A stretch of DNA of 46,387 bases from a virus: positions 1-46,387 of IMG/VR virus record IMGVR_UViG_3300024324_000889; one strand, written 5' to 3'. Positions 4,852 to 46,387 of this stretch are shown here, piece by piece; position 1 is the stretch's first letter; each line of letters starts with the position of its first letter. A program made the translations under genes and the position numbers. The notes beneath the pieces were generated by a model. It was not told where the DNA came from, did no database searches, and saw only the letters and a list, made by a program, of their open reading frames with translations.

Positions 4852-4907
4852 GTTTTAGCACGGCCGTTCACGGGTTATATTCAATCAACAAACAAAAGGA
4901 GTTCCAC
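4852..4907 (+). promoter_or_regulatory. early-type promoter P1 with conserved leader
   Basis: A -35-like GTTTTA (4852-4857), an 18 bp spacer and a TATATT -10 (4876-4881) are followed by CAACAAACAAAAGGAGTT and the ATG at 4908. The same layout recurs five more times in this window, which supports it more than the match to sigma70 alone. Confidence 0.75.
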
Positions 4908-5171
4908 ATGGACGTACGCACCTTCAACAAGTCTCAGATGAATTATTCCGACAACACTTTTTCACAAACAGCTGAAAAGCTTGGCCTTGATTATAATGAT
5001 TTACCTGATGTAATTGAAGTTATTAATGACGAAACACAATTCATGGCTGAATTTAACTCAGCAACAAAAGATGGTACAAACACAATTTATACAGTTAGAA
5101 ATATTTTTAATGGCCGGAAGGTCAAGCTACCTGTAGCGGCAAACAAATTTCACTTAGTAATAGAGGGATAA
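4908..5171 (+). CDS. hypothetical early protein (87 aa)
   Basis: First gene behind early promoter P1, with a strong AAAGGAG ribosome binding site 8 nt upstream. It encodes an 87-aa acidic protein beginning MDVRTFNKSQMNY. No motif recognised. The position right after an early promoter suggests a host-takeover or early regulatory protein, but that is inference. Confidence 0.75.
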   Translation: MDVRTFNKSQMNYSDNTFSQTAEKLGLDYNDLPDVIEVINDETQFMAEFNSATKDGTNTIYTVRNIFNGRKVKLPVAANKFHLVIEG

Positions 5172-5186
5172 GAAAAGAGGTTACAG

Positions 5187-5465
5187 ATGAAACTTAAAGT
5201 TGGGCGTTGTTACTTAACGAAAAATGACGATGTTGTAATCATCACAGGGTATCAGCCACACAAAAAATTCAACAAATATATTGGGTATGCTGTCAGGAAA
5301 AGCGACATAGAGAAAACGACTTATATTCGCATGTCGCCAATTATGTCTTGGGGAGAAAACGGAGACTACTATTGGAGTGGGTGGGATTCAAAGCACGATC
5401 TTCTTGTAATCGCCCAACCTAGCTTACAGCCTCTTCTTCAACTTGACATGATCAAGATAATATAA
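5187..5465 (+). CDS. hypothetical protein (92 aa)
   Basis: 92 aa beginning MKLKVGRCYLTKNDDVVIITG, a small beta-rich protein with the look of an SH3-like or DUF-type barrel. It starts 15 nt after the previous gene with an AAGAGG site and couples by TAATG to the next small gene. Function unknown. Confidence 0.7.
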   Translation: MKLKVGRCYLTKNDDVVIITGYQPHKKFNKYIGYAVRKSDIEKTTYIRMSPIMSWGENGDYYWSGWDSKHDLLVIAQPSLQPLLQLDMIKII

Positions 5466-5605
5466 TGTTTAGAAATATGCTATGCTGGTTAGGCTTACAT
5501 AACTGGCTATACGGGAAATACAGGTGGACAAGAGTATGCTGGAACTGTAAAAGCGATCAGTATATGACGACATTAAACGGTTTTAAAATATGGAATGACA
5601 AGTAA
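5465..5605 (+). CDS. tiny Trp-rich protein (46 aa)
   Basis: ATG in TAATG with the previous gene, and its own TAA forms TAATG with the next. It encodes 46 aa with five Trp residues, all TGG, and a CWNC pair. The perfect coupling on both sides supports a genuine gene. The exclusive use of TGG in such a Trp-rich early peptide contrasts with the late genes. Confidence 0.6.
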   Translation: MFRNMLCWLGLHNWLYGKYRWTRVCWNCKSDQYMTTLNGFKIWNDK

Positions 5606-5823
5606 TGAAATTAGATCAAGCTCTTCGAATTGGAAAAGAATGTGGAATGGAAACTGTTCAGGAAGCATTGGCAAATATCCAAGGGCACGCAATGAATATG
5701 TTTCCATATAGTGAAATTGATGCCGAGCTTGTTGAATTGTATCTTGATTCAAAAGATAACTATTCTGGATCGGTTGACATGACCATCAATCAGTGCTATT
5801 ATAAATGGAAGGATCTGAAATAA
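5605..5823 (+). CDS. hypothetical protein (72 aa)
   Basis: 72 aa beginning MKLDQALRIGKECGMETVQEAL, predicted helical. TAATG-coupled at both ends. No known domain recognised. It sits directly upstream of the cREC gene. Confidence 0.65.
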   Translation: MKLDQALRIGKECGMETVQEALANIQGHAMNMFPYSEIDAELVELYLDSKDNYSGSVDMTINQCYYKWKDLK

Positions 5824-6233
5824 TGACTGATAAAAAAGACTTCAAGATATTTGTTCTTGAAGATAATCCAAAGAGAATGGAATGGTTTAACAACCATCTT
5901 GCCGATCAAATAAGAGCACACGCAAAACCATTTGAAGATTATAAGGATGTGAAAATTGAAATATTCAAAGCAAGCACAGTTCAAAATGCTGAATTGCTTT
6001 GGAATGAACACCAACCTTTTGATGCATATTTCTTAGATCATGATCTTGATGGAAAAGTAATGGTTGAAAGTACTGATCCGAATACTGGATATGCATTCAG
6101 TATGTTTCTATCTGATCAAGGAGTAAATGGTCTCAAGGAGCAGGTATTTATTCACTCACTAAATACAGTTGGTGCTGAGAATATGAAAGGTATATTCATC
6201 AAAGCCAAGCGCGTTCAAATATTTAATTTCTAG
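5823..6233 (+). CDS. cyclic-phosphate processing receiver-like (cREC) domain protein
   Basis: 136 aa from the ATG in TAATG; an upstream in-frame ATG at 5805 lies inside the previous gene. The sequence has a receiver-like fold: FKIFVLEDNPKRMEWF at the N-terminus with the acidic pair, then FDAYFLDHDLDG at the central Asp, NTGYAFSMFL, and VFIHSLNTVGAENM at the end. This matches my recollection of the cREC family, described in RNA-repair contexts and predicted to process cyclic phosphates on RNA ends. Context agrees, since a HAD phosphatase, Pnkp, RlaP and RNA ligase lie within 7 kb. The catalytic role in this phage is inferred. Confidence 0.7.
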   Translation: MTDKKDFKIFVLEDNPKRMEWFNNHLADQIRAHAKPFEDYKDVKIEIFKASTVQNAELLWNEHQPFDAYFLDHDLDGKVMVESTDPNTGYAFSMFLSDQGVNGLKEQVFIHSLNTVGAENMKGIFIKAKRVQIFNF

Positions 6234-6241
6234 GAGGAATT

Positions 6242-6580
6242 ATGTCAGTAAATAATTGTGATTGCTGTTATTGTAGAAGAGATCGCGAAGTTTCTACTCT
6301 TATAGTTCCACCAACAGATTTCAATATGAATGATCAAGCAACTGTTCAACTCACAGACTATGGAAGAAGTGTTCATAGACTTTGGTATGTAATTCTATTT
6401 GATTCTGTTGATGTGGATTTTGGTTTTGAAGAGAAATATTCTGCCTATGAAAAAGAGATCAAAGATGGATTTCTAACAACAGAGCTATGGAGAATCATGC
6501 AGATGTTTGGTACAAAGCACTATATGGGTAATAAGAATTGCTTTGTTGACAATAAAATAAGTATCAAAAAGGGTATTTAA
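6242..6580 (+). CDS. hypothetical protein with N-terminal Cys cluster
   Basis: 112 aa after a strong TAGGAGGAATT site. The N-terminus NCDCCYCRRDREV holds four Cys that could bind metal. The remainder is unrecognised. It ends in TAA directly before the HAD gene, so the two are probably translated together. Confidence 0.65.
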   Translation: MSVNNCDCCYCRRDREVSTLIVPPTDFNMNDQATVQLTDYGRSVHRLWYVILFDSVDVDFGFEEKYSAYEKEIKDGFLTTELWRIMQMFGTKHYMGNKNCFVDNKISIKKGI

Positions 6581-7087
6581 ATGAAAGTAATATTTTTAGA
6601 TATCGATGGTGTATTGACTACAGCAACCTGGGCATCAAACTATAGAGAATTTAATCCAGTTTGCACTAATGGATTATTGAAGATATTGGATGCTGATCCA
6701 GAAATTCAGCTTGTGATCTCGTCAACTTGGCGAGGTGGAAAGAAAGATAGCGTCATTGATCCTGAATCAAGATTGTATCGCGAACTTGAAAAATATGATC
6801 TCATTAAAAAGCTCCACAAGGACTGGCAAACTATACATCTCTATGATTTAAGTCGTGGACACGAAATTCAAGATTGGTTAGATCGACATCCTGAAGTAGA
6901 GAACTATGTAATTCTTGATGATGATGGTGACATGCTTGATGGTCAAAGAGAACATTTTGTTCATACAGCAACTTGGGATGGGATGCTTTTAGCACATCTT
7001 GATCATGCTATTAAAATATTTGGTATTGAGATGGATGCTGTAAAATGGAACAAAGATTTCATTGAATGTAAACTTATCAAGAAATAA
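6581..7087 (+). CDS. HAD-family phosphatase of the RNA-repair (SAK) type
   Basis: 168 aa. LDIDGVL at residues 6-12 holds the HAD nucleophile D7 and acid D9. SSTWRGG is motif II, the Lys/Arg region lies in the middle, and YVILDDDGDML is motif IV. This compact form matches the HAD domain found in 'Swiss army knife' RNA-repair proteins, which removes phosphates from RNA ends. It abuts the previous gene with no gap. The neighbourhood of cREC, Pnkp, RlaP and RNA ligase supports RNA end healing. A nucleotide phosphatase is the alternative. Confidence 0.8.
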   Translation: MKVIFLDIDGVLTTATWASNYREFNPVCTNGLLKILDADPEIQLVISSTWRGGKKDSVIDPESRLYRELEKYDLIKKLHKDWQTIHLYDLSRGHEIQDWLDRHPEVENYVILDDDGDMLDGQREHFVHTATWDGMLLAHLDHAIKIFGIEMDAVKWNKDFIECKLIKK

Positions 7088-7157
7088 AAACCGATAATCG
7101 AAGGACCTATTGCATATTTCACTATATACAATAACCCATAATCAGAGGAGAAGAAGA

Positions 7158-7478
7158 ATGCAAGACGCACAGTTCAAAATAACCGAAGTGAAAGCTTCAA
7201 AGCATGGAAATACACACCAAGCTTACCGAGTTGTGGCACCAACAAGTAAAAGTTACTACGATCGGAAAAGCATGTCAATCAGTCGTGAAGAATATCACGA
7301 ATTACAGAAGCTGGACAAAGATTCTACAAATGTAGTTGTTCAGTTTATTAATCCTGACACGGAGAAGATTGATGATAAACCGTTTTTCCATGGCAAGCTA
7401 CGAACATTCCTCCAGAAGGAAGTTAATATCACTGGAGAGTATGTAATCTTTTGGCTATATAAACCTGCCGAGAGTTAA
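7158..7478 (+). CDS. hypothetical protein (106 aa)
   Basis: The ATG at 7158 is chosen because AGAGGAGAAGAAG lies just before it; an earlier in-frame ATG at 7110 lacks such a site. 106 aa, beginning MQDAQFKITEVKASKHG, mixed alpha/beta with no motif I recognise. It ends in TAA before a regulatory gap containing early promoter P2. Confidence 0.65.
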   Translation: MQDAQFKITEVKASKHGNTHQAYRVVAPTSKSYYDRKSMSISREEYHELQKLDKDSTNVVVQFINPDTEKIDDKPFFHGKLRTFLQKEVNITGEYVIFWLYKPAES

Positions 7479-7602
7479 AGTTGTTCTATAGAGATCTTAT
7501 AGATCTGTTAAAGTGGTTCTATTTTTATTTGACTTGGACGAAATAACTGTTTCATCCAAGTCATCTCTATAGTATATTGTGGCAACAAACAAAGGAGTTG
7601 TT
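7479..7602 (+). promoter_or_regulatory. intergenic control region with early promoter P2 and an inverted repeat
   Basis: Contains -35 GTTTCA (7549-7554), an 18 bp spacer, -10 TATATT (7573-7578) and the leader CAACAAACAAAGGAGTT. An 8-bp inverted repeat, GACTTGGA (7531-7538) and TCCAAGTC (7555-7562), puts the -35 element exactly in its 16-nt loop. A shorter AGATC/GATCT palindrome lies near 7494-7507. The repeat may be an operator, or a hairpin formed in read-through RNA. Confidence 0.65.
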
Positions 7603-8130
7603 ATGCAAAAAATCACACATAAAGAGTTAGTTGAAAAGCTAAATCAATATCGTGGAGTTACATTCATTTCATGTTCAATCGAATCACCGGTCAAAATGGC
7701 CAAAGGTGGACGAGCTGGACGAGCAATAAATCCCTACCATGAACAGATTACAAAAGCTTCTTATCTCAATGGAGCTATTGGATTTGACTATGAAAAGTCA
7801 GTAAATAACCAACGTGGAAAAGAAGGCGTTGAAGAAGTTTTTGAATCCAAACCAAGGGCTTGGGGAACGGTCATGGAAGGTGGAAAATTTGTTGAGCATA
7901 AAGGTAATTTCTATCTTCAGCTCAAGGTTGAGAATGTTGGTGTTGATTCGGTTCAATATTTCAATGAAGGTCAAGCAATTGATCCAGAGCTTCTTACTGA
8001 ATGGCTTCCCAAGAAACGTGAAGGTTCAGGACGGCAAGATGTTGAAAACGAGATCATCCTTCGTGACATCAAATTGGCCAGTATTAAATCAATCAAATTT
8101 GGAAAAGAAGAATATGAGGTAACAGAATAA
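7603..8130 (+). CDS. hypothetical protein (175 aa)
   Basis: ATG at 7603 is preferred to an earlier TTG/ATG frame extension because AAAGGAG of the P2 leader lies 7 nt before it. 175 aa with KMAKGGRAGRAINPYH near residue 30 and a beta-rich centre (GNFYLQLKVENVGVDSVQYF). No family recognised. As first gene behind an early promoter it should be made early. Couples by TAATG to a membrane protein. Confidence 0.75.
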   Translation: MQKITHKELVEKLNQYRGVTFISCSIESPVKMAKGGRAGRAINPYHEQITKASYLNGAIGFDYEKSVNNQRGKEGVEEVFESKPRAWGTVMEGGKFVEHKGNFYLQLKVENVGVDSVQYFNEGQAIDPELLTEWLPKKREGSGRQDVENEIILRDIKLASIKSIKFGKEEYEVTE

Positions 8131-8330
8131 TGAAAGATACAGACATAAAATTCACAATTGGCGGGACAGAGATTAACACAGCTGACCTTACATATAGGCA
8201 AAAACAGGTCGCTCGAAACAGTTCAAAGTGGATTGGTTTTGCAATCATATGGATGGGAGCAGGATTCTGGGTTGCATTTGGTGTATTGCTTGTGGCAATC
8301 TTTGTAAATCTCGAACTTATCCCAGATTAG
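8130..8330 (+). CDS. small membrane protein (66 aa)
   Basis: 66 aa. One clear transmembrane segment near the C-terminus (about residues 35-60, FAIIWMGAGFWVAFGVLLVA), preceded by a Lys/Arg-containing region, suggesting the N-terminus is cytoplasmic. Ends in TAG two bases before early promoter P3. Function unknown. Confidence 0.7.
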   Translation: MKDTDIKFTIGGTEINTADLTYRQKQVARNSSKWIGFAIIWMGAGFWVAFGVLLVAIFVNLELIPD

Positions 8331-8332
8331 AC

Positions 8333-8387
8333 CTTTCATCTAATCGTTTTGAAGTGTATATTCAGGTAACAACAAAAGGAGTTCGCA
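8333..8387 (+). promoter_or_regulatory. early-type promoter P3 with conserved leader
   Basis: CTTTCA (8333-8338), 18 bp spacer, TATATT (8357-8362), then TAACAACAAAAGGAGTT before the ATG at 8388. Same spacing and leader as the other five copies. Confidence 0.75.
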
Positions 8388-8663
8388 ATGAATAAAGCAA
8401 CAATGATGAGAAAAGACCTCTCGAAAAATCCCAAATCTTTCACCAGTTTTGTCAAAGAAAATTATCAGAAGCTTATGACATTATCGTCAAATCCTGAAGA
8501 TCTTATTTCTTTTATTAATGAAGAAACCAAAGGCTTTAGCGTATCTGAAAAATATCGGAATGCTTTAACTGAAAAGCTTATGTCCGGCTCAGTAACTCAG
8601 AATCAGTACTACCTTACAAATGCATATTTGACCGGAAAAGGTCTGAGCGTAGCAGGTATCTAA
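8388..8663 (+). CDS. hypothetical early protein (91 aa)
   Basis: 91 aa behind promoter P3. The sequence is helical and basic at the N-terminus (MNKATMMRKDLSKNPKSF). No motif recognised. TAATG overlap with the following gene. Confidence 0.7.
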   Translation: MNKATMMRKDLSKNPKSFTSFVKENYQKLMTLSSNPEDLISFINEETKGFSVSEKYRNALTEKLMSGSVTQNQYYLTNAYLTGKGLSVAGI

Positions 8664-8854
8664 TGGACTATAATCTAGATAAACTTAAAGATGGAGTAGT
8701 AGCACTGGCAATGGATAGGATCAAAGTAATGCTAGACGCAATGGGTGAAAAAGTGGGACCTGGCAATTTGAACTTGATTAAAACTGAACTTGACAGGGCA
8801 TATTTAGATGGCAGTATTGATGTCATCAACGCAATAAAGGAGATTAAGAGATAA
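8663..8854 (+). CDS. hypothetical protein (63 aa)
   Basis: 63 aa, all-helical in appearance (YNLDKLKDGVVALAMDRIKV), TAATG-coupled to the genes on either side. No family recognised. Confidence 0.65.
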   Translation: MDYNLDKLKDGVVALAMDRIKVMLDAMGEKVGPGNLNLIKTELDRAYLDGSIDVINAIKEIKR

Positions 8855-8997
8855 TGTGTATTTGTGGTGGAGTTGTAGAGGTCTCAATCGGTGCATTTCT
8901 ATTTGGACTGATTGCAGGACTATTAAAGAAGTTTAAGAATAAAAAGAAGACATGTCATTGTCCAGAAATTGATCATCATTTCAATTTAGATGACTAA
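8854..8997 (+). CDS. tiny membrane-associated protein (47 aa)
   Basis: ATG in TAATG; 47 aa. MCICGG start, a hydrophobic stretch VEVSIGAFLFGLIAGLL (about residues 8-25), then a Lys-rich segment and a CHC-containing acidic tail. Likely a single-span inner-membrane peptide. Ends in TAA at the start of early promoter P4. Confidence 0.6.
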   Translation: MCICGGVVEVSIGAFLFGLIAGLLKKFKNKKKTCHCPEIDHHFNLDD

Positions 8998-9001
8998 AAC
9001 T

Positions 9002-9054
9002 GTTTCATTTGGCGCTGCAGGGTGTATATTATGGTAACAACAAAAGGAGTTAAC
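9002..9054 (+). promoter_or_regulatory. early-type promoter P4 with conserved leader
   Basis: GTTTCA (9002-9007), 17 bp spacer, TATATT (9025-9030), then AACAACAAAAGGAGTT before the ATG at 9055. Best match to the early promoter pattern of this window. Confidence 0.8.
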
Positions 9055-9378
9055 ATGATTACAAAGAATGAAAGAATCGCAACAAAAGCTTATGAAAGAC
9101 TCGTCAAGCCTATGATGGAGAGGTACAATGAGTCAGTTGAAATGAGTCATGCAATCGATTTTGGTGAGTTCAGCACGGTTGATTTCCCAGATGAAGAACA
9201 TGAAGCCTTGCTTCAAAAGGTTGCATCACGTTTTGGTATGACAAGTGATAGATTGTTCACGACCTCATACATGGCATCAGAAGAATATGAAGAGCATGCT
9301 CGTGAACATAGAGTTTGGATAGATCCAGCCGGCGGAACACATGTTGGCTTTGAAGATCCAGCAGCAATGTATGCTTAA
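9055..9378 (+). CDS. hypothetical early protein (107 aa)
   Basis: The ATG at 9055 sits 6 nt after AAAGGAG; an upstream in-frame ATG at 9022 would overlap the -10 box and is rejected. 107 aa, acidic, beginning MITKNERIATKAYERL. No domain recognised. Confidence 0.7.
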   Translation: MITKNERIATKAYERLVKPMMERYNESVEMSHAIDFGEFSTVDFPDEEHEALLQKVASRFGMTSDRLFTTSYMASEEYEEHAREHRVWIDPAGGTHVGFEDPAAMYA

Positions 9379-9390
9379 AGGAGATCAAAA

Positions 9391-9744
9391 ATGGGATTAA
9401 CACTGTGGCTGGCACGTAAATGTGGCTATGAACAAGAGATCAATTCGAAGCCATTCAGGAAAGAGCTGTATCAATTCTTTCATTGGAATAGAGAAGTGAA
9501 TTTTGGTTCCAATAGCTTAGGTGATCACGACTATCTCCATGATATTCATGACGTCACTGCAAAGATCAATGCCGACAATGAATATATTGTCACAATTAAG
9601 ACTACTCGACCTGGGTATATCATTGGTGCCAAGGGATGGCTTATCACTCAGATTCAGCTTTATATGCAGGCACAGTTCCCTGATAAAGTATTGAAAATAC
9701 ATATTGAAGAAACACGACTATGGGCAGAGCTCTGGAGAGATTAA
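9391..9744 (+). CDS. KH-domain RNA-binding protein (S3-like)
   Basis: 117 aa after an AAAGGAG site. Residues 70-105 read IKTTRPGYIIGAKGWLI and then LKIHIEET. The GAKG (79-82) is the GxxG loop of a type II KH domain, and RPGYIIGAKG closely resembles RPGxVIGxKG of ribosomal protein S3. The first half is not recognised. It may bind RNA or the host ribosome; its closeness to the RNA-repair genes suggests an RNA-guiding role, but that is inference. Confidence 0.7.
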   Translation: MGLTLWLARKCGYEQEINSKPFRKELYQFFHWNREVNFGSNSLGDHDYLHDIHDVTAKINADNEYIVTIKTTRPGYIIGAKGWLITQIQLYMQAQFPDKVLKIHIEETRLWAELWRD

Positions 9745-9745
9745 T

Positions 9746-9937
9746 GTGAGCATTGAAACATTAGTTGCATTAATAGAGTTCACAGGCGGTGACGCCACGG
9801 ACATCATTGAGTGGCATAAGGCTGAAATCGTTCTTGACAAAATAACTAAAATTATAACAGAGAGCAAGCACGGATTTGAAAGCCCAGTTGCAAATGTCAA
9901 TATCATAGAAGCATTATTGGAATATAAAAAGGACTAA
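9746..9937 (+). CDS. hypothetical protein (63 aa)
   Basis: The GTG at 9746 is preferred because TGGAGAG lies 8 nt upstream and it follows the preceding TAA by one base. A longer reading from 9704 would overlap the KH gene by 40 nt. 63 aa, helical, no motif recognised. Ends shortly before the Pnkp gene. Confidence 0.6.
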   Translation: MSIETLVALIEFTGGDATDIIEWHKAEIVLDKITKIITESKHGFESPVANVNIIEALLEYKKD

Positions 9938-9941
9938 TAAA

Positions 9942-10928
9942 TTGACAAAACAAAAATCTGTAAAATTAGTACTCATGAGAGGAATACCAGGGTCTGGTAA
10001 ATCTACAAAATCAAAAGCAATGGTTGCTAAAGATCCAAATAGCTGGGTTAGAATAAATCGAGATGATTTTCGATTTATGATTAACGACTATTTCTATGGC
10101 AATATGAGAGTAGAAAATTTGATTTCAAAAGCAACACACCGAATGGCTGAAGATGCTTTACGTGCAGGATTCAATGTTATATCTGACGATATGAACTTGA
10201 GACAAAAGTATGTTACTGAATGGCACAATATTGCTGAAAAAATTGGTAATATTACTGTTGTTGAAAAATACATGGACATCACTCTGAAAGAAGCGCTTAA
10301 AAGAGATTTGACTCGTGAAAAGAAAGTCGGAGCTGATGTAGTTAAGAACCAGTTTAATAAATATGTTAAGAATATGAAAATTCGTGAAGAGACATATTAC
10401 CCACCAGTTGATAGAGCTGGACAGTACATTGTTCAAGATGAATCATTACCTAGAGCAGTTATCTGTGATATTGATGGAACAGCAGCTCTTATGAATGGAA
10501 AGCGTGGACCTTTTGAATGGCACAATGTATTCAGAGATGATGTGAATAAACCTGTAGAAGAGTTGATTAAAATAATTCAAAACAGTAATGATTTCGTTGG
10601 CTATGGTTATGAGTTAGCTGGTGAGACACAAGAGTATGATGATGTAAAAATGATCTACTTATCAGGTCGTGATGGAGCAGCAAAGGATGAGACAATCCGC
10701 TGGTTCAAAGAAAAGATGAAGATCGAAGTTGTCTATGGTGACAATCTATTCATGAGAGCACCAAATGATCAACGCAAAGATTCTATCATCAAGCAAGAGC
10801 TATATGATGCTCACATCAGAGGGCAATATAATGTTCTATTTGTATTGGATGATAGAAATCAAGTAGTAGACAACTGGAGACAAGAAATTGGACTACCAAC
10901 ATTTCAAGTAGAATATGGAGATTTCTAA
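9942..10928 (+). CDS. pseT: polynucleotide 5'-kinase / 3'-phosphatase (T4 PseT-like)
   Basis: 328 aa from a TTG start; T4 Pnkp is 301 aa. The N-terminal kinase has a P-loop, RGIPGSGKST (residues 13-22), and INRDDFR, the substrate-binding Asp/Arg region. The C-terminal phosphatase has VICDIDGTAAL with the acylphosphatase motif DIDGT (about 176-180), then YLSGRDGAAKDET and a late FVLDDRNQVVDNW. The enzyme removes 3'/2',3'-cyclic phosphates and phosphorylates 5'-OH ends of broken tRNA, preparing them for the RNA ligase encoded 1.4 kb downstream. Same domain order as T4 PseT. Confidence 0.93.
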   Translation: MTKQKSVKLVLMRGIPGSGKSTKSKAMVAKDPNSWVRINRDDFRFMINDYFYGNMRVENLISKATHRMAEDALRAGFNVISDDMNLRQKYVTEWHNIAEKIGNITVVEKYMDITLKEALKRDLTREKKVGADVVKNQFNKYVKNMKIREETYYPPVDRAGQYIVQDESLPRAVICDIDGTAALMNGKRGPFEWHNVFRDDVNKPVEELIKIIQNSNDFVGYGYELAGETQEYDDVKMIYLSGRDGAAKDETIRWFKEKMKIEVVYGDNLFMRAPNDQRKDSIIKQELYDAHIRGQYNVLFVLDDRNQVVDNWRQEIGLPTFQVEYGDF

Positions 10929-10935
10929 AATAACG

Positions 10936-10990
10936 GTTTCATTTGTTAATGCAGTATAGTATATTGCAGTAACAACCAAAGGAGTACACA
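10936..10990 (+). promoter_or_regulatory. early-type promoter P5 with conserved leader
   Basis: GTTTCA (10936-10941), 18 bp spacer, TATATT (10960-10965), then TAACAACCAAAGGAGT before the ATG at 10991. Probably drives the RlaP / RNA ligase segment as well. Confidence 0.78.
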
Positions 10991-11209
10991 ATGAAATGGT
11001 TACAAAAATTCAAAAAAGGTCATCTTATTGAGCCATTCATTTATGTAGATTTTGACGATAGAATTGTCAGGGCACACAGAGGTAATAGAATCAAATGGCT
11101 TGAAAAGCATTACATCTATTCATTTACATTCCAAGGTGCTGTTCATGCGACAAAGAAATTAACCGAAAAGAAATACCCACAATATGCTGGGTCAATTTAT
11201 TATTTTTAG
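10991..11209 (+). CDS. hypothetical early protein (72 aa)
   Basis: 72 aa, basic and beta-rich (IYVDFDDRIVRAHRGNRIKW). First gene behind early promoter P5, ending in TAG 11 nt before the nucleotidyltransferase. No family recognised. Confidence 0.7.
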   Translation: MKWLQKFKKGHLIEPFIYVDFDDRIVRAHRGNRIKWLEKHYIYSFTFQGAVHATKKLTEKKYPQYAGSIYYF

Positions 11210-11220
11210 AAGGAAGCAAT

Positions 11221-12000
11221 ATGTCTGACATTGTAAAATATATCAAAGATTTTGAGAAAGAGAAATTGCTCTACCTTGTTCTTGCAGGGTCACGAGGATA
11301 TTCAACTCACACAGATGAGTCTGACTATGATTATCGTGGGGTGTTTGTGAATACTAAGGAAGAAGTAATTGGTAGCCTAACGCGAGATAAACAAAAATAC
11401 TGGCCTGACACTGAAGATGCAATGCTCCATGGTTTGCAAAAATTTGTTAAGCTGGCCTCAAATGCAAGTCCTAATGTCATTGAACTTTTATTCATGAATG
11501 GTACGGCAGAATATATTCATCCCTTGTTTGCAAAATGGTTCCTTGACAATCGTGATGACTTTTTATCTCTAAAATGCTATAATAGTTACTCAGGATATGC
11601 TTGGGGACAGGTTCAACAAAGCAAGCATAAGTCTTCTCATGGATCCTTACGTGAAAAATATAAATGTGGAGATCCTCAAGATCCATATGATTCAAAATAT
11701 GCAATGCACACAATTCGCATGATGTATAATGGATTAGAAATTATTCAGACTGGGATGTTAACTCCAAATTTCAAGGATAGCGGCCTTCTTACCGTTTTAC
11801 AAGAGATTCGGAAAGGTGATTTCTATAAAAATGCTACTGAATTTTATCAGCATGTAGAAAGCCTTGATGCTGACATTAAAAAATCACATGAGCATGCTTC
11901 AATTGGAAAGTGGCTTCGTGAAGAACCAAGTCGGGATCGGATGAATGAATTACTAATTGGATTCTATGAAGAACTTTGGTATTCAAAATGAAATATATAA
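11221..12000 (+). CDS. RlaP-like predicted nucleotidyltransferase (RNA-repair associated)
   Basis: AGAAGGAAG precedes the ATG. The N-terminus shows the polymerase-beta motif: LAGSRGYSTHTDESDYDYRG, with GS at 23-24 and DxD at 35-37. Later EKYKCGDPQDPYDSKYAMH and an 'IRMMYNGLEIIQTG' helix match the YcgL/RlaP family, described alongside RNA ligases. It probably adds nucleotides to or modifies RNA ends during repair. With the standard code it would stop at TGA 11989-11991 (256 aa). With TGA as Trp it adds W-N-I and stops at TAA 11998-12000 (259 aa). Which end is used is uncertain. Confidence 0.8.
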
Positions 12001-12326
12001 TATTATTGGCATTCATTGGTTTGGTTATTGAAGCTCGATATCAAATTGAGAAAATGAAAAACAAGCCATTCAGCGATGAAAATTCTGAATATGACCAATC
12101 GATGAAGATTAATCAATATGTTGTTTTTCTAAAAGACTATCAATCGGAAGAGCAGAAGAATATGCGACAGGAGAAATATAACAAGGGTGAAGTTGTGACT
12201 GTTCGGCATATATCAACTGGAGTTGTGGGCCCAATCCAGATTGAATACTTAAATGCTATTGATTATTCTATGATTGTTGATAATGCAGGATATACAATTA
12301 TGAGAATCATACCAATTGAAAGGTAG
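11988..12326 (+). CDS. membrane-anchored hypothetical protein (112 aa)
   Basis: ATG at 11988 forms the only ATGA overlap of the window with the upstream gene. 112 aa; MKYIILLAFIGLVIEAR is an N-terminal hydrophobic anchor, followed by a charged helix and a small beta-rich part. No family recognised. Ends in TAG just before the RNA ligase gene. Confidence 0.65.
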   Translation: MKYIILLAFIGLVIEARYQIEKMKNKPFSDENSEYDQSMKINQYVVFLKDYQSEEQKNMRQEKYNKGEVVTVRHISTGVVGPIQIEYLNAIDYSMIVDNAGYTIMRIIPIER

Positions 12327-12331
12327 ATATA

Positions 12332-13432: not shown

Positions 13433-13593
13433 TGTATCAAGAATTTTATCATGATGAATATGAAGATCACTTGGCAGAACGAGCTATGTGGGACTGGCTA
13501 GATAAATGGTGGTGGACACTGATCCCAATTGTTCCACTAATTCCATTTTTAGTTATAGGGATTGGTGTTTATGCACTAATTTTTGGGAGTTAA
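13432..13593 (+). CDS. small Trp-rich membrane protein (53 aa)
   Basis: ATG in TAATG with the ligase gene. 53 aa: an acidic N-terminus, MWDWLDKWWWTL near the middle, then one transmembrane segment (IPIVPLIPFLVIGIGVYALI). All five Trp codons are TGG. It could be a small host-envelope protein; function unknown. Confidence 0.65.
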   Translation: MYQEFYHDEYEDHLAERAMWDWLDKWWWTLIPIVPLIPFLVIGIGVYALIFGS

Positions 13594-13728
13594 TAAAACC
13601 GACTTTTTGCTCTTTGATATATATTTATACATAACTCGAATCCGTTTAACGTGAGGCATGAAGACCTTTAGAGTTGTTACATGATAGCAACAAAATGTTA
13701 AGTGGAGATATTAATAAGGAGACACATC
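13594..13728 (+). promoter_or_regulatory. leader region with a late-type TATATTTAT box
   Basis: A TATATTTAT box lies at 13620-13628. The next gene starts 100 nt further, much farther than the 30-34 nt typical of the other late boxes, so a long untranslated leader is implied or the match is fortuitous. A weak hairpin, GTTGTT/AGCAAC, lies near 13674-13692. AAGGAG precedes the ATG at 13729. No tRNA or ORF of note is visible in the 135 bp. Confidence 0.45.
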
Positions 13729-14818: not shown

Positions 14819-14860
14819 TATATTTATATAAATAATGACAACTAACCAAGGAGAAAATAT
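14819..14860 (+). promoter_or_regulatory. late-type promoter L2
   Basis: TATATTTAT at 14819-14827, followed 33 nt later by the ATG at 14861, with a CCAAGGAG site between. Matches the late box seen before the tail operon and tail fibre. Confidence 0.65.
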
Positions 14861-33272: not shown

Positions 33273-33273
33273 C

Positions 33274-35503: not shown

Positions 35504-35516
35504 TATATTTATATAT
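35504..35516 (+). promoter_or_regulatory. late-type TATATTTAT box directly before a start codon (L7)
   Basis: TATATTTAT at 35504-35512 is only 4 nt before the ATG at 35517. If used, the transcript would be leaderless or begin within the gene; no Shine-Dalgarno site is visible. Confidence 0.4.
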
Positions 35517-37458: not shown

Positions 37459-37459
37459 A

Positions 37460-40400
37460 ATGAAATCACAAAGACAATGGAAAAGGGTAGCTCATATATC
37501 CGATATTCATATTAGAACTATTGCTAGACAAGGCGAATATAAAGCTGTATTTGAAAAGCTTTTTCTATCGTTGAGGAACGAAGCAGTTGATGCCGTTATC
37601 ATTACCGGTGATACCGTCCATGGGAAGACTCAAATGTCACCAGAGCTTATAGAGATGCTATATTTCTTGTTTGAAAATCTTAATAAATTAGGCATCAAAA
37701 TCATCATAATCCCGGGCAATCATGACGCATCCTTATCAAATCTATCAAGAACTGATGCACTTTCACCAGTTCTGATGCTATCCGAGTTTAAAAACATAGA
37801 TTATTTGCGCGATACTGGAGTGTATAACTATGGAGATGTAGACATATATCACTATTCTGTATTCCAAGATAAATCTACATTCGATACAACAATACAAAAT
37901 CCTGACAACACTAATATTGCATTATACCATGGGCCGATTAATGGATCTCAAAATGAATTTCAATTCACATTTGAATCTAATATGACAGCCGGATTTTTTA
38001 GACCATTTGATTTTACAATGCTAGGTGATATTCACATGAGGCAATGTCTTCAGGAAGAGAATCCCATCTGGTATGCTGGAAGTCTTATTCAGCAGAATTA
38101 TGGTGAAGAGGTTGAGAAGGGATATCTAATTTGGGATCTCACAGACAAATCTGTAGAATTCATAAAGATTGAAAACGATAATGCCTTTCATACTCTATAT
38201 GCTAAGAATAATATTCTGGAAGATAAGATCTTTCTTGCATCCAGTCCAAGGGTGAGACTATATTTCGATAAGCTTTCAATGTCAAGGCTTGAGGAAATCA
38301 AATCAGAAGTGGTGCAAAAATATGGTGCAATAGAGATTATTCCCCATGAAGTGGAGGGGCTTCTCGAAACAGATTTGAAAGATGAATTTGAAGATTCAGA
38401 TTTCTATGATATTGCTGTGCAGAATAAGTTGATTAAAGAATACCTGCGAACTCGATATCCATCATTAACAAAAAAAGAGACTGAAAAGATTATTGAAGTC
38501 AATTCTGATATTGAGCATATTGTTAAAGAGGATCCTACATATTCAGATAAGAAATCTATGTCAAGATGGACTCTTGGACATATGCAATTTGATAACTTCT
38601 TCACATTTGGAGAAGACAATAGAATTAATTTCAAAGACCTGACTGGGATCACTGGAATCCTTGGTGCAAATGCTCAAGGAAAATCATCCATCTTAGAAAC
38701 AATTACATTTGCCATATTTGGCACAACCTCAAAGCAGTTAAGTCTTGCTCAGTTGGTTAATAACCAAAAAGATAAGGCAAAGGTCTATATTACTTTGGAA
38801 TCGGACGGTCAACTGTACGAAGTTGAACGCAAACTAAAAGTCCATGAGAAGGCAGGGAAGAGGGGAGCGTCTCAGACGCTTACATTCAACAGAATTGATA
38901 AGGATCAGGGTGCTCTGCTAGAAGAATTGAACGGTGACGATAAGAATGCGACTGAAAAGAACATTAGGGAGATATTCGGAACGTCTGACGACTTCTTAAA
39001 TACAGCAATGATAGCACAGAACAACTGGGCATCCTTCATTAAGAGCAAAGATACCAATCGGAAGAATATTTTGATGAGCTTCCTTGACCTTACAGCATTT
39101 GATAGGAAACACAAGGTTGCCAACAAGATTAATAACGACAATATAACTGTATTGAAGGAGCTAAATAAGGACGATCTATCCTCTCAACTGGCTGGGACTA
39201 ATAAGGAAATTGTTAAAGCCACAACAGGAATTAGTAATCGTAGGGGAGATGGAGCGGCATATAAAGTAATTGCTAGAGATATACAGAAGGAAAAAGATGC
39301 TCTACAGGCTCAGGTCCGTGCTGTTAAAGGGAAAGAGATTGATGTTCCCAATCAGGAAAATACAATTGAAGCCCACAAGACATCTATTAAAAAACTAGGT
39401 GTAGAAGCACAAGATCTTGATAAGCTACGTCGGACCAAACGAAGAGAATCTCTTGATATGGTAGATGAAATTTTCAATCTTGCAATCGAAAGCGAAACTG
39501 CTGCTGAGAAATTAGCAGAGGTGACCAAGACAAATGATGCTGATCGAACAAATGAATCATTGACCTGGGGCACTAAGGATATGCAATTCCGTCGGCTTGC
39601 TTCAACTCGACAAGAATCAATCATGGAATTTACATCAATCATTATGGGACTTGAGTCTAAAATAATGCTCAAAGAGCAAGAGATTAAAGTAAATAAGAAA
39701 AATCAAGAATTGATTACTGATGATTTTGTTGAACATGACGTTTGTTCTAAATGCATACTTGTAAAATTTGCCCTCGATGCTAGAGGTGGTGAAGAGAAAT
39801 TAAACAATGAATTAGTAGCACTAAACAATGAGATTATCAGCGAGACAGCTTTACGTGAGAAGGAACGATCAGCATTGGCACTAATAGAAGAAGATCATCA
39901 AAAAGCAAATGACATATTTGATGGAAGAATTGAGGAGCTTGATAAAGAAATAGAATCTGTAAGAGTCTTATCTGAATCAACTAGAAGATTGGTTGAGGAA
40001 AATCAATCCAATCAAGACACTCTCAGTGCTCAGGCAGAATTGCTCGAATCTAAGGTACAAACAAAGATTGCCGAGGCAAGAAGTATAGGTCAGCAGATCA
40101 AAGCCATACAGGCTGAAATTGCTCTATATAAAGAAAATCAAAAGACCATAGAACAGAATAAATCATTGATGTCATTGATTGAAACAAAGCAAAACAAAAT
40201 TGATGAAGCCAATAAGTTCTATGAAATTGAACATGAGAAAGAAATGGAATTCACAAACAACTTGGCCATGTATAAAGAACGAAGAGACAATATCTCTGAA
40301 AAAATGGATCAAGTCAAGGAGAAGAGGATCATTACAGATCGATATTCATATTACTTGGCAGCCGTCCATCGTAATGGAATCCCATCTGATATTATTAGTA

Positions 40401-40825
40401 ATGCCCTTCATAAGGTCAATTTTGAAATATCAAGATTGCTAGATTCAGTGGTGAATTTCCAATTGAATATTGTAGATGACAATGATAAGATTGGTGTCTA
40501 TCTGAAATATGTGGATGGAGAGTTAATTCCAGTGGAAGCAGCCTCCGGTATGGAATCTATTATGAGTGAGATTGCTATTCGTAATGCTCTGCTCAAGATA
40601 TCAATGAAACCCAAACCAACACTAATTGCTATTGATGAAGGATTCTCTGCATTGGATTCTGAAACACAAGCATCTCTACACAGCATGTTTACTGTATTAA
40701 GATCGGCATTCAGAAATACATTTATCATCAGTCATATCGAACAACTGAAAGACTATATGGATAATAATATTGATCTTAGGAAAGAAAATAACGAAACACA
40801 TATAGGAAACATCAGCACACTATAA
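37460..40825 (+). CDS. fused SbcD-SbcC (Mre11-Rad50; gp47-gp46) recombination nuclease-ATPase
   Basis: 1121 aa in one reading frame. Residues 1-340 are an Mre11/SbcD phosphoesterase: HISDIHIR (D15, H17), ITGDTVHG, IPGNHDAS, LYHGPING and MLGDIHMRQ. Residues about 370-1121 are a Rad50/SbcC ATPase: Walker A GANAQGKSS (402-410), long coiled-coil arms around a zinc hook CSKC (762-765), then AASGMESIMSEIA (signature) and LIAIDEGFSALD (Walker B/D-loop, D1059, E1060). T4 encodes these as gp47 and gp46 separately. It processes DNA ends for recombination-dependent replication and host DNA degradation. No TGA codon occurs in this long ORF; all six Trp are TGG. Confidence 0.93.
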   Translation: MKSQRQWKRVAHISDIHIRTIARQGEYKAVFEKLFLSLRNEAVDAVIITGDTVHGKTQMSPELIEMLYFLFENLNKLGIKIIIIPGNHDASLSNLSRTDALSPVLMLSEFKNIDYLRDTGVYNYGDVDIYHYSVFQDKSTFDTTIQNPDNTNIALYHGPINGSQNEFQFTFESNMTAGFFRPFDFTMLGDIHMRQCLQEENPIWYAGSLIQQNYGEEVEKGYLIWDLTDKSVEFIKIENDNAFHTLYAKNNILEDKIFLASSPRVRLYFDKLSMSRLEEIKSEVVQKYGAIEIIPHEVEGLLETDLKDEFEDSDFYDIAVQNKLIKEYLRTRYPSLTKKETEKIIEVNSDIEHIVKEDPTYSDKKSMSRWTLGHMQFDNFFTFGEDNRINFKDLTGITGILGANAQGKSSILETITFAIFGTTSKQLSLAQLVNNQKDKAKVYITLESDGQLYEVERKLKVHEKAGKRGASQTLTFNRIDKDQGALLEELNGDDKNATEKNIREIFGTSDDFLNTAMIAQNNWASFIKSKDTNRKNILMSFLDLTAFDRKHKVANKINNDNITVLKELNKDDLSSQLAGTNKEIVKATTGISNRRGDGAAYKVIARDIQKEKDALQAQVRAVKGKEIDVPNQENTIEAHKTSIKKLGVEAQDLDKLRRTKRRESLDMVDEIFNLAIESETAAEKLAEVTKTNDADRTNESLTWGTKDMQFRRLASTRQESIMEFTSIIMGLESKIMLKEQEIKVNKKNQELITDDFVEHDVCSKCILVKFALDARGGEEKLNNELVALNNEIISETALREKERSALALIEEDHQKANDIFDGRIEELDKEIESVRVLSESTRRLVEENQSNQDTLSAQAELLESKVQTKIAEARSIGQQIKAIQAEIALYKENQKTIEQNKSLMSLIETKQNKIDEANKFYEIEHEKEMEFTNNLAMYKERRDNISEKMDQVKEKRIITDRYSYYLAAVHRNGIPSDIISNALHKVNFEISRLLDSVVNFQLNIVDDNDKIGVYLKYVDGELIPVEAASGMESIMSEIAIRNALLKISMKPKPTLIAIDEGFSALDSETQASLHSMFTVLRSAFRNTFIISHIEQLKDYMDNNIDLRKENNETHIGNISTL

Positions 40826-40844
40826 TAAACTTATTTCCTTGGAT

Positions 40845-40883
40845 TATATTTATATAATATGAGTATAATCTAAGGAGATGATA
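40845..40883 (+). promoter_or_regulatory. late-type promoter L8 of the tail fibre gene
   Basis: TATATTTAT at 40845-40853, 30 nt before the GTG at 40884, with TAAGGAG between. Confidence 0.75.
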
Positions 40884-43800
40884 GTGGGTACCACATTAAC
40901 TGCATTAAACAAAGCTGATCTAAAACTAAACTTTGAAAAATCCCCCATTGATAAGATTCTTGATGAAAATCCATTTTCTAAATATTTTAGAATTTTTGGC
41001 GTCAAGGAAGAGTCATATGGTTTAGGGCGACATTCGTTCATACTTTATGGATCAGAAGGATTAGTTAGAAATTCAGACATACAAATTGAAATTCTTGATG
41101 TCAATGGACAACCAATTGTTGTTCGTGCCGTAGATGCTGCGTCTAATAGTCCAGGGTGGAGAGTTTGATTTACAATCACAGAATTGCATACCGCCGGACC
41201 TGCTACAATATCAGTTGTTGGATCAGCAGATTTAAGAGAGTTTGACATCGAATCAGGTCTTCGAGGATCTGAATACAATGTAATGTGAAACCGAATCATT
41301 GCAGTTAATCCTACCCTACCAAATAGATCTGACATTGTATTCCAAGAAGCACCAGATTTTACAGCCGTAGAAACAATCCAGACAGACGCAGATAATCCCT
41401 TAAAGAATAGAAGCTTTGCACAAATAGCATTTAATGATCTAGAGACATACTCTGGATTTGTTGAAGCCATTGATGTATTCTTACTTTCATCAGGCTCAGT
41501 GTCAGTTGACGCAGATGAGACGAAATGACAAAGTCTCGGAAAAGTTCCAGTGACAGGATCAAGCGTTGGCGTCAATCCTAATTCATTTAGTTTTAAAATT
41601 GCAGTTCCTACAGAGCGTGAAGATGACATTCTCACATTTAAGACGAGATTCTTAAATCCATTTGGCGAGTATGCTAAAGTTAATGAGTCTGGATCTGTCT
41701 ATGAGGTAACATCTTCAGAAACAAATTTTGCTGGTGCCAATACATATGCACTTTCAGCTTCTATGGTCGGAGAAGGTCTTATTACTGGATCACTATACGC
41801 ATCTAATGCTTTAGGTTCTGGAATTGAGATCGCTGGTAAAACATCAGGTTATATGCGTTCAGTTGGATATGAGGGATTCTTATCAGCCTCAATGAGCCTT
41901 GCTTCTCCCGGATTCATGATGTATTCAGGTGCTGTTTTACCAGCGTCAGGTGATTCATATGACGGAGTTGGTCTCGAACTTGTTTCAGACAATGGGTACT
42001 TAAGATTTAGTACAAATCCAAGCAGATTTGAAGTTGTGGCTGACTCATTCTTTGTTGGAGATTATGATTCTCAATATATTTCTGGATCAAGTGGTACGAT
42101 TGTAATTAGCTCATCTGGATTCTATTTGGATCCAAATGGTAATGTGTTTATCTCGGGTTCAATCTCTGCCTCTGCTGGATATATTGGTGGATGACAAATT
42201 GTTACTGGAGCACTATATAATTTAACGGCATCTGACTATGTTGGGATGTCAACCGCTGGTGATACAAGATTTTTTGCTGGTGCATCATCATTAGCAAATT
42301 CAGGCTCTGGTGTTTTCAATGTGAAATCAACTGGAGAGATAACAGGATCTGATGTACTATTTACAGGCGGAAAAATTGCATCATTTAATCTAACCAACGA
42401 TGCATTCTATACTTCAAACTTTTTCATTAGTAGTTCTGCAACAGGCAATGACTATTTTATAAGCTCGTCTAATTTTAATATAAAAGCAAGTGGAGACATC
42501 ACTGGATCATCTGCACTATTTGATGGCAGCATTTATGTAACTGGGACAGGTACAATTGGTGGATTTTCACTATTGGCTGACGAAATTAAATCTTCAAATG
42601 ACTATTTACGATTAAAGTCTAGTGGTCAGATTACTGGTTCAAATGTTCAATTCACAGGTGGAGATATCGGTGGTTGGACAATTGATTCTGGAAGTTTGTA
42701 CAATGATTCAGAAACGACTAATATATATTTAAGCAGTGAAAATACTAATTGAGCTAACATTAGTGATAATACTGTATATCTTGGAAGAATTCAAGGGAAT
42801 TATAATGCTCTTGCTATTAAAAAGGATGCTACTCATTATATTCTTATGGGTCAAAATGATGCTGGTTCTGGATTTATTCAAGGATATAGTGGTAGTGCAA
42901 TATTTGATTTACGAACAGATACTTCGTCTTCTATTGCTGGTTGGACATTTGATGATTCATCTTTAGGTGGAACAAATCTTACAATGTATTCAAGTGGACT
43001 TATTGAGACAAATGATTTTGTAAGTGGATTAAAGGGATGGAGAATTGATCAGACAGGACTTGCAGAATTTGATAATGCTGTGATTAGAGGATCTCTATCA
43101 ACCGTTTCATTCGATAAGCAAACTATCAATGCTGTTGGTGGACAATTATGAGTAGCTAACTCAACTGTAGTTAGTGGAAGTGCTGTTGGAATTTCTGATG
43201 TTACTATGAGTGTTGCAAACGCCAGTGGATTTGAGCCAACAGAATATATGATCGTCAAGAAAGTATCTGAAACTGGATTTAGTGAAGAGGTTGTAACAAT
43301 AGTTAGTGCGTCGGTTGACAATCTAACAACTGGTGCAGGTCGACTTATGGTAACAAGAGGAACCAGTGGATCGGCGGCTGCATATGAAGAGGGACAGGTT
43401 CTTGTTTCAACAGGAAAATTAAACACGGGATACATCAAGCTAAATGCAAGTCCGGCTGATACTTCAACTCCATATATAGACATTATTGAGCGAACTGGCT
43501 CTGCTTATGCTGATACAGATTTAAAAGCTAGACTTGGAGATCTAAGTGGATTAGCAGTAGGGCTTGTGGGAACCGATCCTGGGTATGGATTATATTCACA
43601 AAATGTATTTTTAACTGGAACAATCAATGCTCCTCTAGGACATATTGGAGGATGGCAAATTGGTAGTGCTTTTATAAGCTCATCTGACAATTCTGTTCTT
43701 TTAAATTCATCAACTCCCAACATTGCATTAGGAACTAATTCTCATTTAATGAATATGACAACAGGCACTGGTGTCTACATGGATGGAGCCGGTAATTTTA

Positions 43801-46387
43801 GAGCTGGAATGCCTGAGGGATATAGAATATCATTTGATGGTAGCAATTTAATATTAAGTTCATCAGACTTTTTCCTTGGTGGAGATGGACAATACATAAG
43901 TGGATCAGCTGGAACTTTAGAAATGAGTTCGAGCAAGTTTCATCTAGACACAACTGGAAATATTACAGGATCATCGGTCTATTTCACAGGAGGAGAAATA
44001 GCTGGATGGACATTTAATACTGGATCATTCTCAAAGAATGGTGTTAGACTAGAAGCTGAAACTGATGGTGGATTATATATTTCAGATGATTACAATAATG
44101 ACTTAATTGCCGTAGCATCAAAATCAATGTATATGCTTGGATCAGCTACAGACGAAATGGTTAACGATTCATTCGAATATGATGTTGGAGGTCTATGAAC
44201 AGGATCTGATGGTTATCATCTTGGAAATGCATCCTCTCCATTGAGCGTTGTTAGTTGGTCGTTGGCAACTGTAGGTCCCGTATCTCACTCAATGACAAGA
44301 CGACTTGGTGCTGGATATGAACTATATAATGCTGCTGTTGTGGGTGATAATACATTTGATATTATCTACCCAGGAACGCTTGCTCCAATTGCATCAACAA
44401 GCAGAAGTTTAGCCCAGACATCTGCATCATATTTAACATCAAATCAATATGAACTATCTCAGATCGTTAGTGCTAGTTCTCAAGCTGCTCAAACATGAGT
44501 TGAGGGAAATGTTGTTTCACTGGCGTTCGTGGCAAAAATGTCACACTCTCTTGCTGGAGCAGGATATGATAGAGGATTTGAGCAACAAAAATATCGAGTT
44601 GAATATTGGTCTGGAAGCGCTTGGAATAAACTTATTCCAACAGGGACTAGCGAGTGGTCTAAATACAATATGGCCGTCAAATATACTTCAATCAAGGCTT
44701 CGGCAAAACTACCAGCTTCAACATCTAAGTTGCGGTTAAGGCTGTCCGGATCAATCAATCCAGACGTGACTCAAACATCTGAAGAATACAAATTGGATGA
44801 ATGGTTTGCAAGCATTAGAAGCCTATTGAGCTTTGGATCTCTAACACCTGAGACTCCAATTTTATTACAAGATGGTACATCGACCGAAACTATCAAGGCA
44901 TTAAGAGTTAAAGCCGCCGTTCTTGCATGAGATAGTATTGCGAATGAAAATATTGTTGCGTACGTAGTTACAAAGACTAATCATCATGCGACATCAAGCT
45001 TATATATTAATGGTTCAGATATCATCACATCTGATACTCAGTTATTTGAAACAGTCGATAGTGGAAGTATGCTTGCATCGAGCCTGACAACTAGTGATAA
45101 ACTTATTGACAAAAATGGAGATACAGTTACAATTAGTACAATTAATGAGGTCCGTGGAGATTATCCTTTATTTAACCTCGTATTGGCACGAAGAGCAGAA
45201 GATGGCGAAATTGATGATAGCCTGTATTATTATGCAGGAGCTACAACTCCCGTAAGATCAAATCACACCGGTTCGGCATCGGCTAGATATGAAGAGGAGC
45301 CATTAGAAGTAGAAACAACTTCATCAGATGATTCTGCAAAATATCCCTATACAGAAATTTCATTTGACAACTTCAGATTAGTTCAAGATACTCCAAGAGT
45401 TGAATTATCAAAAGATGGATTTTTACTTTATCAGTCTGAAGTATCATATATTCAGATGTCACCAGACAATTTTATTATCCGTACTCCAAGTGATGGAGCT
45501 GCAGGTATTGGTAATGCTGTTTCATCAAATATGTCAACTACAAACACAGCTGTACTTGGACAATTGGCTGCTCCATCTATTCAACCTTATGAAGCAGAGC
45601 CAACTGACATTGGCCAAACACCTTTTGCTGGAGGTATCAATGAATATTCAATGGGAAATCACCGACATGATTTAAACTTTGATGTACTGAATAATGTGGC
45701 TCAATCAGGATCGTTTGGAACTATTGATATTACAAATCTTTCAGTAGGAAGCTTAAGCTTCACTGGTGGTGGTTCATTTGTTCTTACTGGATCACTTGCT
45801 GTAAGTTCTAGTAATGATTCATACTTTGTTGGTGGTGGTGGAATTGGTATTGGAACTACAACTTCAACATCAGATTTACATGTAAATGCAATAAGCAATG
45901 TTGGTTTTACATTACAACATGCATCAAGACCAACAATAGCATTGACAGACGGTACAAATTATGCGTATATAGGATTAGATAGTGGTGGACAAATTATTAC
46001 TGGTGCTGAAGATAATGATTTAGCAATCCGTTCACCTGATAAAATAAGGTTTGCAACGGGTGCATCGCTTTGAATGACAATTGATAATGTTGGTAGTGTA
46101 GGAATTGGAACAGCTACTCCTGGCAATCCTTTAGAAGTTTATCATGCAACAACAAATACAGTGACAAATTTTAAATCAGGAGATACTTTAACACAGATTA
46201 GTATTGAAGATACGAGTGATATGGCTTATTTTGGTACACAAAATAATTTAGCCTATTTTGGTTTAAGTTCTGGTGCTTCTATAAACAATGTAATTGTAAA
46301 TACTTCTGGATATGTTGGAATTGGAACTGCAAATCCATCAACGAATCTTCATGTAGAAGGTGACGCAATATTCACAGGAACAGTAAC
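40884..46387 (+). CDS. giant tail fibre protein, partial (10 in-frame TGA = Trp; 3' end outside the window)
   Basis: At least 1834 aa, still open at the window end. GTG 40884 is preferred because TAAGGAG lies 6 nt before it; an ATG at 40878 would touch that site. In-frame TGA codons begin at 41166, 41286, 41526, 42192, 42750, 43149, 44196, 44496, 44928 and 46071; about as many Trp use TGG. The middle has repeated fibre units such as SGQITGSNVQFTGGDIGGW and TGNITGSSVYFTGGEIAGW. Residues about 1319-1435 resemble a Hint domain. The distal part has GIGIGTTTS, VGIGTATPG and VGIGTANPS repeats common in phage fibres. It should bind the host surface; tip and chaperone domains lie beyond the window. 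Confidence 0.88.
44838..45189 (+). other. Hint-like (intein-related) domain inside the tail fibre
   Basis: The stretch SLTPETPILLQDG, then VLAWDSIANENI, LYINGSDIITSDTQLF and LTTSDKLIDKNGDTV ending in YPLFNLVLA follows the block order of Hint domains (first-residue nucleophile, A block, B block, terminal strand). The W of VLAWD is a TGA codon. The usual B-block His is replaced (TSDTQ) and no terminal His-Asn is visible, so it is probably non-splicing. Confidence 0.45.

Follow-up and report, generated by a model that had tools for sequence, protein, structure and literature searches.

A skew of recoded TGA or TAG codons towards late genes, together with a switch of genetic code, has already been published and is known from gut phages; in the available text of five reports, recoding of TGA or TAG is confined to late genes and a switch is proposed (PMC7886860, PMC12386605, PMC9523058, PMC10607447, PMC11210395). 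According to the accessible parts of PMC12386605 and PMC7886860, crAss-like phages that read TGA as tryptophan, such as Lera (PMC12386605), resemble the phage studied here in that TGA stands at Trp positions, the recoded genes are mostly structural or late, the terminase is also recoded and many phage tRNAs are present. Lera, as described in the accessible text, has a TCA-anticodon tRNA, whereas none was found here, and unlike the crAss-like phages ours is a tailed phage related to immuto that carries sheath and baseplate genes, and its promoters were mapped against codon use. Such a TCA suppressor tRNA is given for 11 of 73 table-4 phages in the accessible part of PMC11210395. Code 15 phages, in which TAG encodes Gln, likewise recode late and structural genes, but they differ in codon and amino acid, and TAG reading is backed by proteomics in the excerpts of PMC9523058 and PMC10607447. 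Among the literature matches listed, no title named a marine TGA-recoding myovirus, which is no proof of absence.

The window, by which we mean the whole stretch of DNA analysed, is the 46,387-base virus record IMGVR_UViG_3300024324_000889 of an uncultivated phage. It was extended by 75,813 bases upstream from a near-identical contig (G001, 105,677 bases), by 2,028 bases downstream from G002 and on the left side by 5,470 (G008), 13,654 (G011) and 953 bases (L057). Positions outside the window carry the prefix of their piece (ext3, ext2, ext, up for upstream, down for downstream; win denotes the window itself). The recovered population totals 144,305 bases. In it 198 genes were called, containing 92 in-frame TGA and 528 TGG codons, and every gene of the accepted set lies on the + strand. 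Genes were called with our own script, which missed the gene at 5465-5605 and hence leaves it outside the unit counts. Since the ends did not join in a 30-base check, the genome is taken as incomplete. Judged by homology, the phage is related to Flavobacterium phage immuto (NC_055915), whose terminase, portal, capsid, sheath, tube, hub and wedge genes are homologous and largely syntenic and whose primase is homologous too; most of these homologues are also present, in largely the same order, in Microcystis phage Mel-JY01 (PP395634). Unlike the phage described here, both relatives follow the standard code wherever pieces of them were tested. The window genes considered below, with their Trp-codon counts, are as follows.

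21020-21454, + strand: baseplate wedge subunit (PHROG); 1 TGA, 0 TGG
21465-23366, + strand: baseplate wedge subunit (PHROG); 2 TGA, 1 TGG; TGA codon 557 is W in 11 of 12 relatives
23381-24391, + strand: tail-block ORF; 2 TGA, 2 TGG; TGA codon 96 is W in 10 of 11
24394-25713, + strand: ORF; 6 TGA, 2 TGG
25716-28979, + strand: tail-block ORF of 1087 aa; 6 TGA, 8 TGG; TGA codon 393 is W in 7 of 11
29038-29718, + strand: ORF; 1 TGA, 1 TGG; the TGA column is Tyr in 6 of 7 relatives
31146-31910, + strand: ORF; 4 TGA, 0 TGG
31920-32708, + strand: ORF; 2 TGA, 2 TGG
32724-33272, + strand: ORF; 3 TGA, 0 TGG
33883-34401, + strand: RuvC-like resolvase beginning with GTG; codon 15 is TGA (Tyr in the only relative aligned there), 1 TGG
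35517-36278, + strand: homing endonuclease (PHROG); 2 TGA, 0 TGG
36511-37458, + strand: DNA primase; 0 TGA, 4 TGG
37460-40825, + strand: SbcDC-like fusion; 0 TGA, 6 TGG
40878-46387, continuing past the window, + strand: open ORF of >2500 aa, possibly fibre-like; 10 TGA, 11 TGG

The initial annotation had read internal TGA as tryptophan, and alignment with relatives supports this reading. With TGA and TGG masked, W was the most frequent residue at 30 TGA columns (33% of 163 aligned relative residues, with Tyr next at 12%), and 44 TGG columns masked as a control gave W in 49% of 195 residues. Many TGA columns are variable: W made up at least half of the residues in 13 of the 30 and less than half in 17, and two columns combined at least 75% W with at least four sequences. 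At terminase codons 117 and 297, both TGA, the two aligned relatives each carry W. In the right tail block, translation under code 4 lifted the coding fraction from 0.804 to 0.988, and in the left one from 0.874 to 0.965, compared with 0.896 to 0.905 in the middle region. The virion pieces of this phage gained 4.0 and 4.5 per kb under code 4, while none of 20 pieces of the relatives showed a clear gain, one immuto piece rising slightly (0.24 per kb). Sequencing error or pseudogenes are an unlikely source of the codons: although many TGA positions rest on a single contig, none of the 44 single-base differences between overlapping contigs touches or creates an in-frame TGA, and under code 4 the coding differences comprise 31 synonymous against 10 non-synonymous changes. 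Avoidance of TGA stops is weak proof, since immuto likewise has few; TGA ends at most 3 of about 122 genes in the middle region, 9 of 194 in immuto and 23 of 95 in Mel-JY01, the relatives being represented by pieces only. T is rarer as the base after TGA than after TGG (p=0.027, uncorrected), a difference on which we do not rely.

Two promoter motifs, both real, are present in the genome, the names 'early' and 'late' being inferred from the motifs and from gene function. The early motif consists of CTGTTTCAT, about 17 bases, TATATT, about 5 bases and AACAA; a motif scan of the 144 kb at a score of at least 17, a threshold chosen after the scores were known, found 11 sites on the + strand and none on the - strand. 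The late-type box TATATTTAT occurs in 22 copies on the + strand and 3 on the - strand against 1.7 expected per strand, and 20 of the 22 lie at least partly outside called genes, in sequence that makes up 6.8% of the total. One of the two + strand copies within called genes is found at window position 31653, inside the gene 31146-31910. Units were defined by 21 intergenic late-type sites, 13 of which had also trained the scoring matrix. All six early promoters named P1 to P6 by the initial annotation are present, with -10 boxes at 4876, 7573, 8357, 9025, 10960 and 33298.

4850-4891, + strand: early promoter P1 (motif scan), with a CTGTTTCAT-type -35, TATATT at 4876 and AACAA
7547-7588, + strand: early promoter P2 (motif scan), TATATT at 7573
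8331-8372, + strand: early promoter P3 (motif scan), TATATT at 8357
9000-9040, + strand: early promoter P4 (motif scan), TATATT at 9025
10934-10975, + strand: early promoter P5 (motif scan), TATATT at 10960
33272-33313, + strand: early promoter P6, TATATT at 33298, within the otherwise box-led right half
4908-13593, + strand: early units P1-P5, 21 called genes with 55 TGG and one TGA (11989)
11988-11991, + strand: ATGA overlap, whose TGA probably terminates the nucleotidyltransferase-like gene 11221-11991 and whose ATG opens 11988-12326
13620-13628, + strand: late-type box TATATTTAT (motif scan)
14819-14827, + strand: late-type box upstream of gene 14861-15298 and the tmRNA
18543-18551, + strand: late-type box heading the unit with the baseplate/tail block
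28995-29003, + strand: late-type box (motif scan)
33844-33851, + strand: late-type box TATATTTA, preceding the RuvC-like gene
35504-35512, + strand: late-type box preceding the homing endonuclease; no other promoter lies closer upstream of primase/SbcDC
40845-40853, + strand: late-type box heading the last ORF and the lowest-scoring site used (12.3)

Genes behind early promoters had been described as free of TGA, and across the 144 kb this very nearly holds: their 41 called genes contain 1 TGA against 99 TGG codons, and a TGA fraction as low or lower arose in 7 of 197 rotations of gene order. The single exception, TGA 11989, lies within the stop-start overlap ATGA, two codons ahead of a TAA, and is probably a true stop. 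The Trp-rich genes 5465-5605 and 13432-13593 do use TGG alone (five codons each), the SbcDC-like gene is indeed without TGA, and no convincing sense TGA was found among the units of all 11 early promoters. Early units P4 and P5 also include genes matching polynucleotide kinase (window 9942-10928) and RNA ligase (12332-13432) in PHROG, possibly an RNA repair pair.

The complementary claim, that a late-type box means TGA, did not stand when TGA and TGG were counted per gene against promoter class over the 144 kb. Box-led units as a whole (150 genes) contain 81 TGA against 408 TGG, which sets them apart from early units (Fisher 2e-6), and the seven genes ahead of the first promoter contain 10 TGA against 21 TGG. 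Yet all 83 Trp codons of the two box-led replication units (up:16311-37556) are TGG, the primase/SbcDC genes, for which box 35504 is the nearest upstream promoter, have 0 TGA against 11 TGG, and the units led by boxes 13620 and 14819 hold one TGA in total, a terminal one. Among non-virion genes, early and box-led classes differ weakly (1 TGA and 99 TGG against 16 and 274; p=0.084). Nor could we confirm that the pattern persists where the classes interleave at 33-41 kb, a region with few codons to judge by (3 TGA, 19 TGG). Promoter class is rejected as the rule because box-led replication genes lack TGA. A GroES-like gene lies in the window at 35037-35357, with GroEL about 46 kb upstream (up:62948-64582).

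Gene function predicts TGA use better than promoter class does. Virion blocks, whose boundaries were drawn by hand with the TGA map in view, contain 75 TGA against 155 TGG, and all other genes 17 against 373 (Fisher 3e-21; 2 of 197 rotations); with early units left out, the comparison is 75 and 155 against 16 and 274. Codon p-values assume independent codons, and the rotation tests are weaker. When genes were named by homologue annotation, from lists picked by annotation after the TGA map, TGA was present in 8 of 11 virion but 0 of 13 replication genes (gene-level p=2e-4), or 17 TGA and 50 TGG against 0 and 71 codons. The replication list first held 15 genes (0 of 82 codons), from which a NUDIX and a dUTPase-like gene, both TGA-free, were dropped as not belonging to replication. 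Thirteen non-virion genes carry a TGA, including a glycosyltransferase (up:41762; W in the one relative aligned at the TGA), the RuvC-like gene, the homing endonuclease and an endonuclease-like ORF (up:69217). In three genes (win:11221, win:13729, up:66354) the only TGA is terminal, one to seven codons before TAA.

Within the virion module, TGA use is heterogeneous, with none of 5,000 permutations as extreme. ORF 24394-25713 found no match in Pfam or PHROG, and a recount gave it 6 TGA and 2 TGG, exactly the six of eight Trp codons first reported. The major capsid gene (ext:1098) has 11 TGG and 0 TGA, the tail tube (6 TGG) and portal (4 TGG) likewise have no TGA, and the sheath has 1 TGA among 6 Trp codons. 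Capsid, tube and sheath together show 1 TGA and 22 TGG against 74 and 133 in the other virion genes (p=0.0016), a comparison chosen after the capsid gene had been seen. Over five other synonymous pairs, A/(A+G) is 0.71 in virion, 0.69 in replication, 0.68 in early and 0.74 in capsid/tube/sheath genes, whereas the TGA share of Trp codons is 33%, 0%, 1% and 4%, respectively. A general A/G codon bias is rejected as the cause, because it is alike across the gene classes; the like bias and unlike TGA share point to selection. TGA is thus disfavoured everywhere, and least in the lower-copy virion genes.

We consider it rather probable that TGA is read as Trp by a decoding activity that sets in late or works incompletely and has to compete with termination. 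Selection would then strip TGA from genes translated early or in bulk, while late, moderately expressed genes would tolerate it, so that it becomes enriched in the virion module. The decoder would probably be a phage RNA: the tRNA-Trp(CCA) that the phage carries, or else a suppressor tRNA encoded in sequence still missing from the recovered genome.

The initial annotation had instead proposed a timing gate, in which selection keeps internal TGA so that late proteins stay incomplete before the code switch. The near-absence of TGA from early and replication genes stood, and the gate gains from the lack of any convincing sense TGA behind early promoters, from the TGA and own late-type box of each of the RuvC-like gene, the homing endonuclease and the endonuclease-like ORF, and from proteomic support, in the available text of PMC9523058, for two other phages reading TAG late. 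A strict late gate nevertheless fits poorly with the major capsid and tail tube, which have 0 TGA in 17 Trp codons (0 in 21 with the portal), and box-led replication genes are TGA-free as well. Moreover, virion genes use TGA at 33% against the 71% predicted from A/G bias, and TGA positions are evenly spread along genes. A tolerated cost would explain the TGA-free replication, capsid, tube and portal genes and the sub-bias use in virion genes more simply, and we regard the gate as unlikely in general, though it may operate for single genes. Besides a promoter map, the genome supplies a test at the level of codons, and this favours cost over gate.

Two further readings fare worse. A host that already translates TGA as Trp, to which the phage is still adapting with its early and replication genes lagging, would suit the lack of a TCA-anticodon tRNA in the recovered phage sequence, but is very unlikely, being hard to square with TGA at 0 of 83 replication and 1 of 100 early Trp codons. 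A virion module derived from a TGA-recoding phage, combined with a replication module from a phage that uses the standard code, would account for the concentration of TGA in blocks, yet it is the least credible reading given that immuto has homologues from both modules and Mel-JY01 several, with the standard code in the tested pieces, that A/G codon bias hardly differs between gene classes and that isolated TGA genes stand in the middle of the genome.

Returning to a late or incomplete decoding of TGA, we consider which phage RNA might perform it. ARAGORN predicted 27 tRNAs, all within up:65.1-74.9 kb, and Rfam placed no tRNA outside this interval. ARAGORN and a strict pattern scan found no TCA-anticodon tRNA in the 144,305 bases of the incomplete genome, and PF00579 and PF00472 had no match in G001 and G002. 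The sole tRNA-Trp has a CCA anticodon, U8-C9 and five anticodon-stem pairs and, by our reading, C24 and a 4-base variable loop. It follows a late-type box (up:69190) and overlaps by 15 bases, stop included, the end of the ORF at up:69217 (L044:10717-11394), which has TGA at each of its three Trp codons. PHROG matches of this ORF (function not named; resolvase) span its TGA codons; Pfam gave no match, and the label endonuclease-like is our own reading.

A9C favours UGA reading by E. coli tRNA-Trp according to the accessible text of PMC5311926 and PMC13092985, and among the UGA-reading tRNA-Trp(CCA) variants given there (G24A, A9C, 4-bp anticodon stem) the phage tRNA-Trp shares C9 only. Among the bacterial tRNA-Trp genes in the matches listed (at least 119), position 9 was A in 117, G in 2 and C in none; the set was defined by a fixed pattern for the anticodon loop and T arm, one that would miss the shorter variable loop of this phage. 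Of 68 viral tRNA-Trp loci, 67 of which have a good acceptor stem, 7 carry C9, three of the seven being this population. As a sufficient mark of TGA recoding C9 is rejected: nine pieces from the four remaining virus records with C9, and two 50-kb pieces of phAss-1, which has C9 as well, score lower under code 4 and end genes with TGA. An earlier local code-4 test of tRNA loci had been insensitive, with this phage's own loci gaining just 0.37-1.05 per kb.

Since C9 alone is insufficient, a tRNA-Trp(CCA) decoder would need a second factor. One such scheme would have the tRNA, expressed from its late-type box and with its hinge loosened by C9 and the four-base variable loop, read UGA as a near-cognate without a suppressor anticodon once release factor 2 is outcompeted, while the phage tmRNA, which follows a late-type box of its own, would clear ribosomes running through host UGA stops. 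We hold this scheme to be improbable, the more so as other C9 phages use TGA stops. The tmRNA itself lies within the window.

15305-15662, + strand: tmRNA (ARAGORN; Rfam RF00023, 120.8 bits), tag GTNYAIAA, tag frame ending in TAA

It begins 7 bases after gene 14861-15298, behind a late-type box, and one may speculate that it could rescue ribosomes after UGA readthrough. Its similarity to other tmRNAs gave no informative match pointing to a host. For the two relatives ARAGORN reported no tmRNA, the sequence covered being about 148 of 160 kb in immuto and 100 of 190 kb in Mel-JY01, and tmRNA is counted in 402 of 18,146 phage genomes in the accessible text of PMC9004378.

A second virus record, G019 (IMGVR_UViG_3300035698_016860, including loci L284-L286), rises in coding fraction from 0.755 to 0.977 under code 4 in one 20-kb piece. 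Like the present phage it has a tRNA array and a CCA tRNA-Trp, with no TCA tRNA in 60 of its 60.7 kb, and it differs in having G at position 9 of the tRNA-Trp. With the same decoder gap in two records, the missing decoder becomes a concrete question. As a side observation, ARAGORN predicts a putative tmRNA with an unusual tag in LR756508 (L048:7435-7878).
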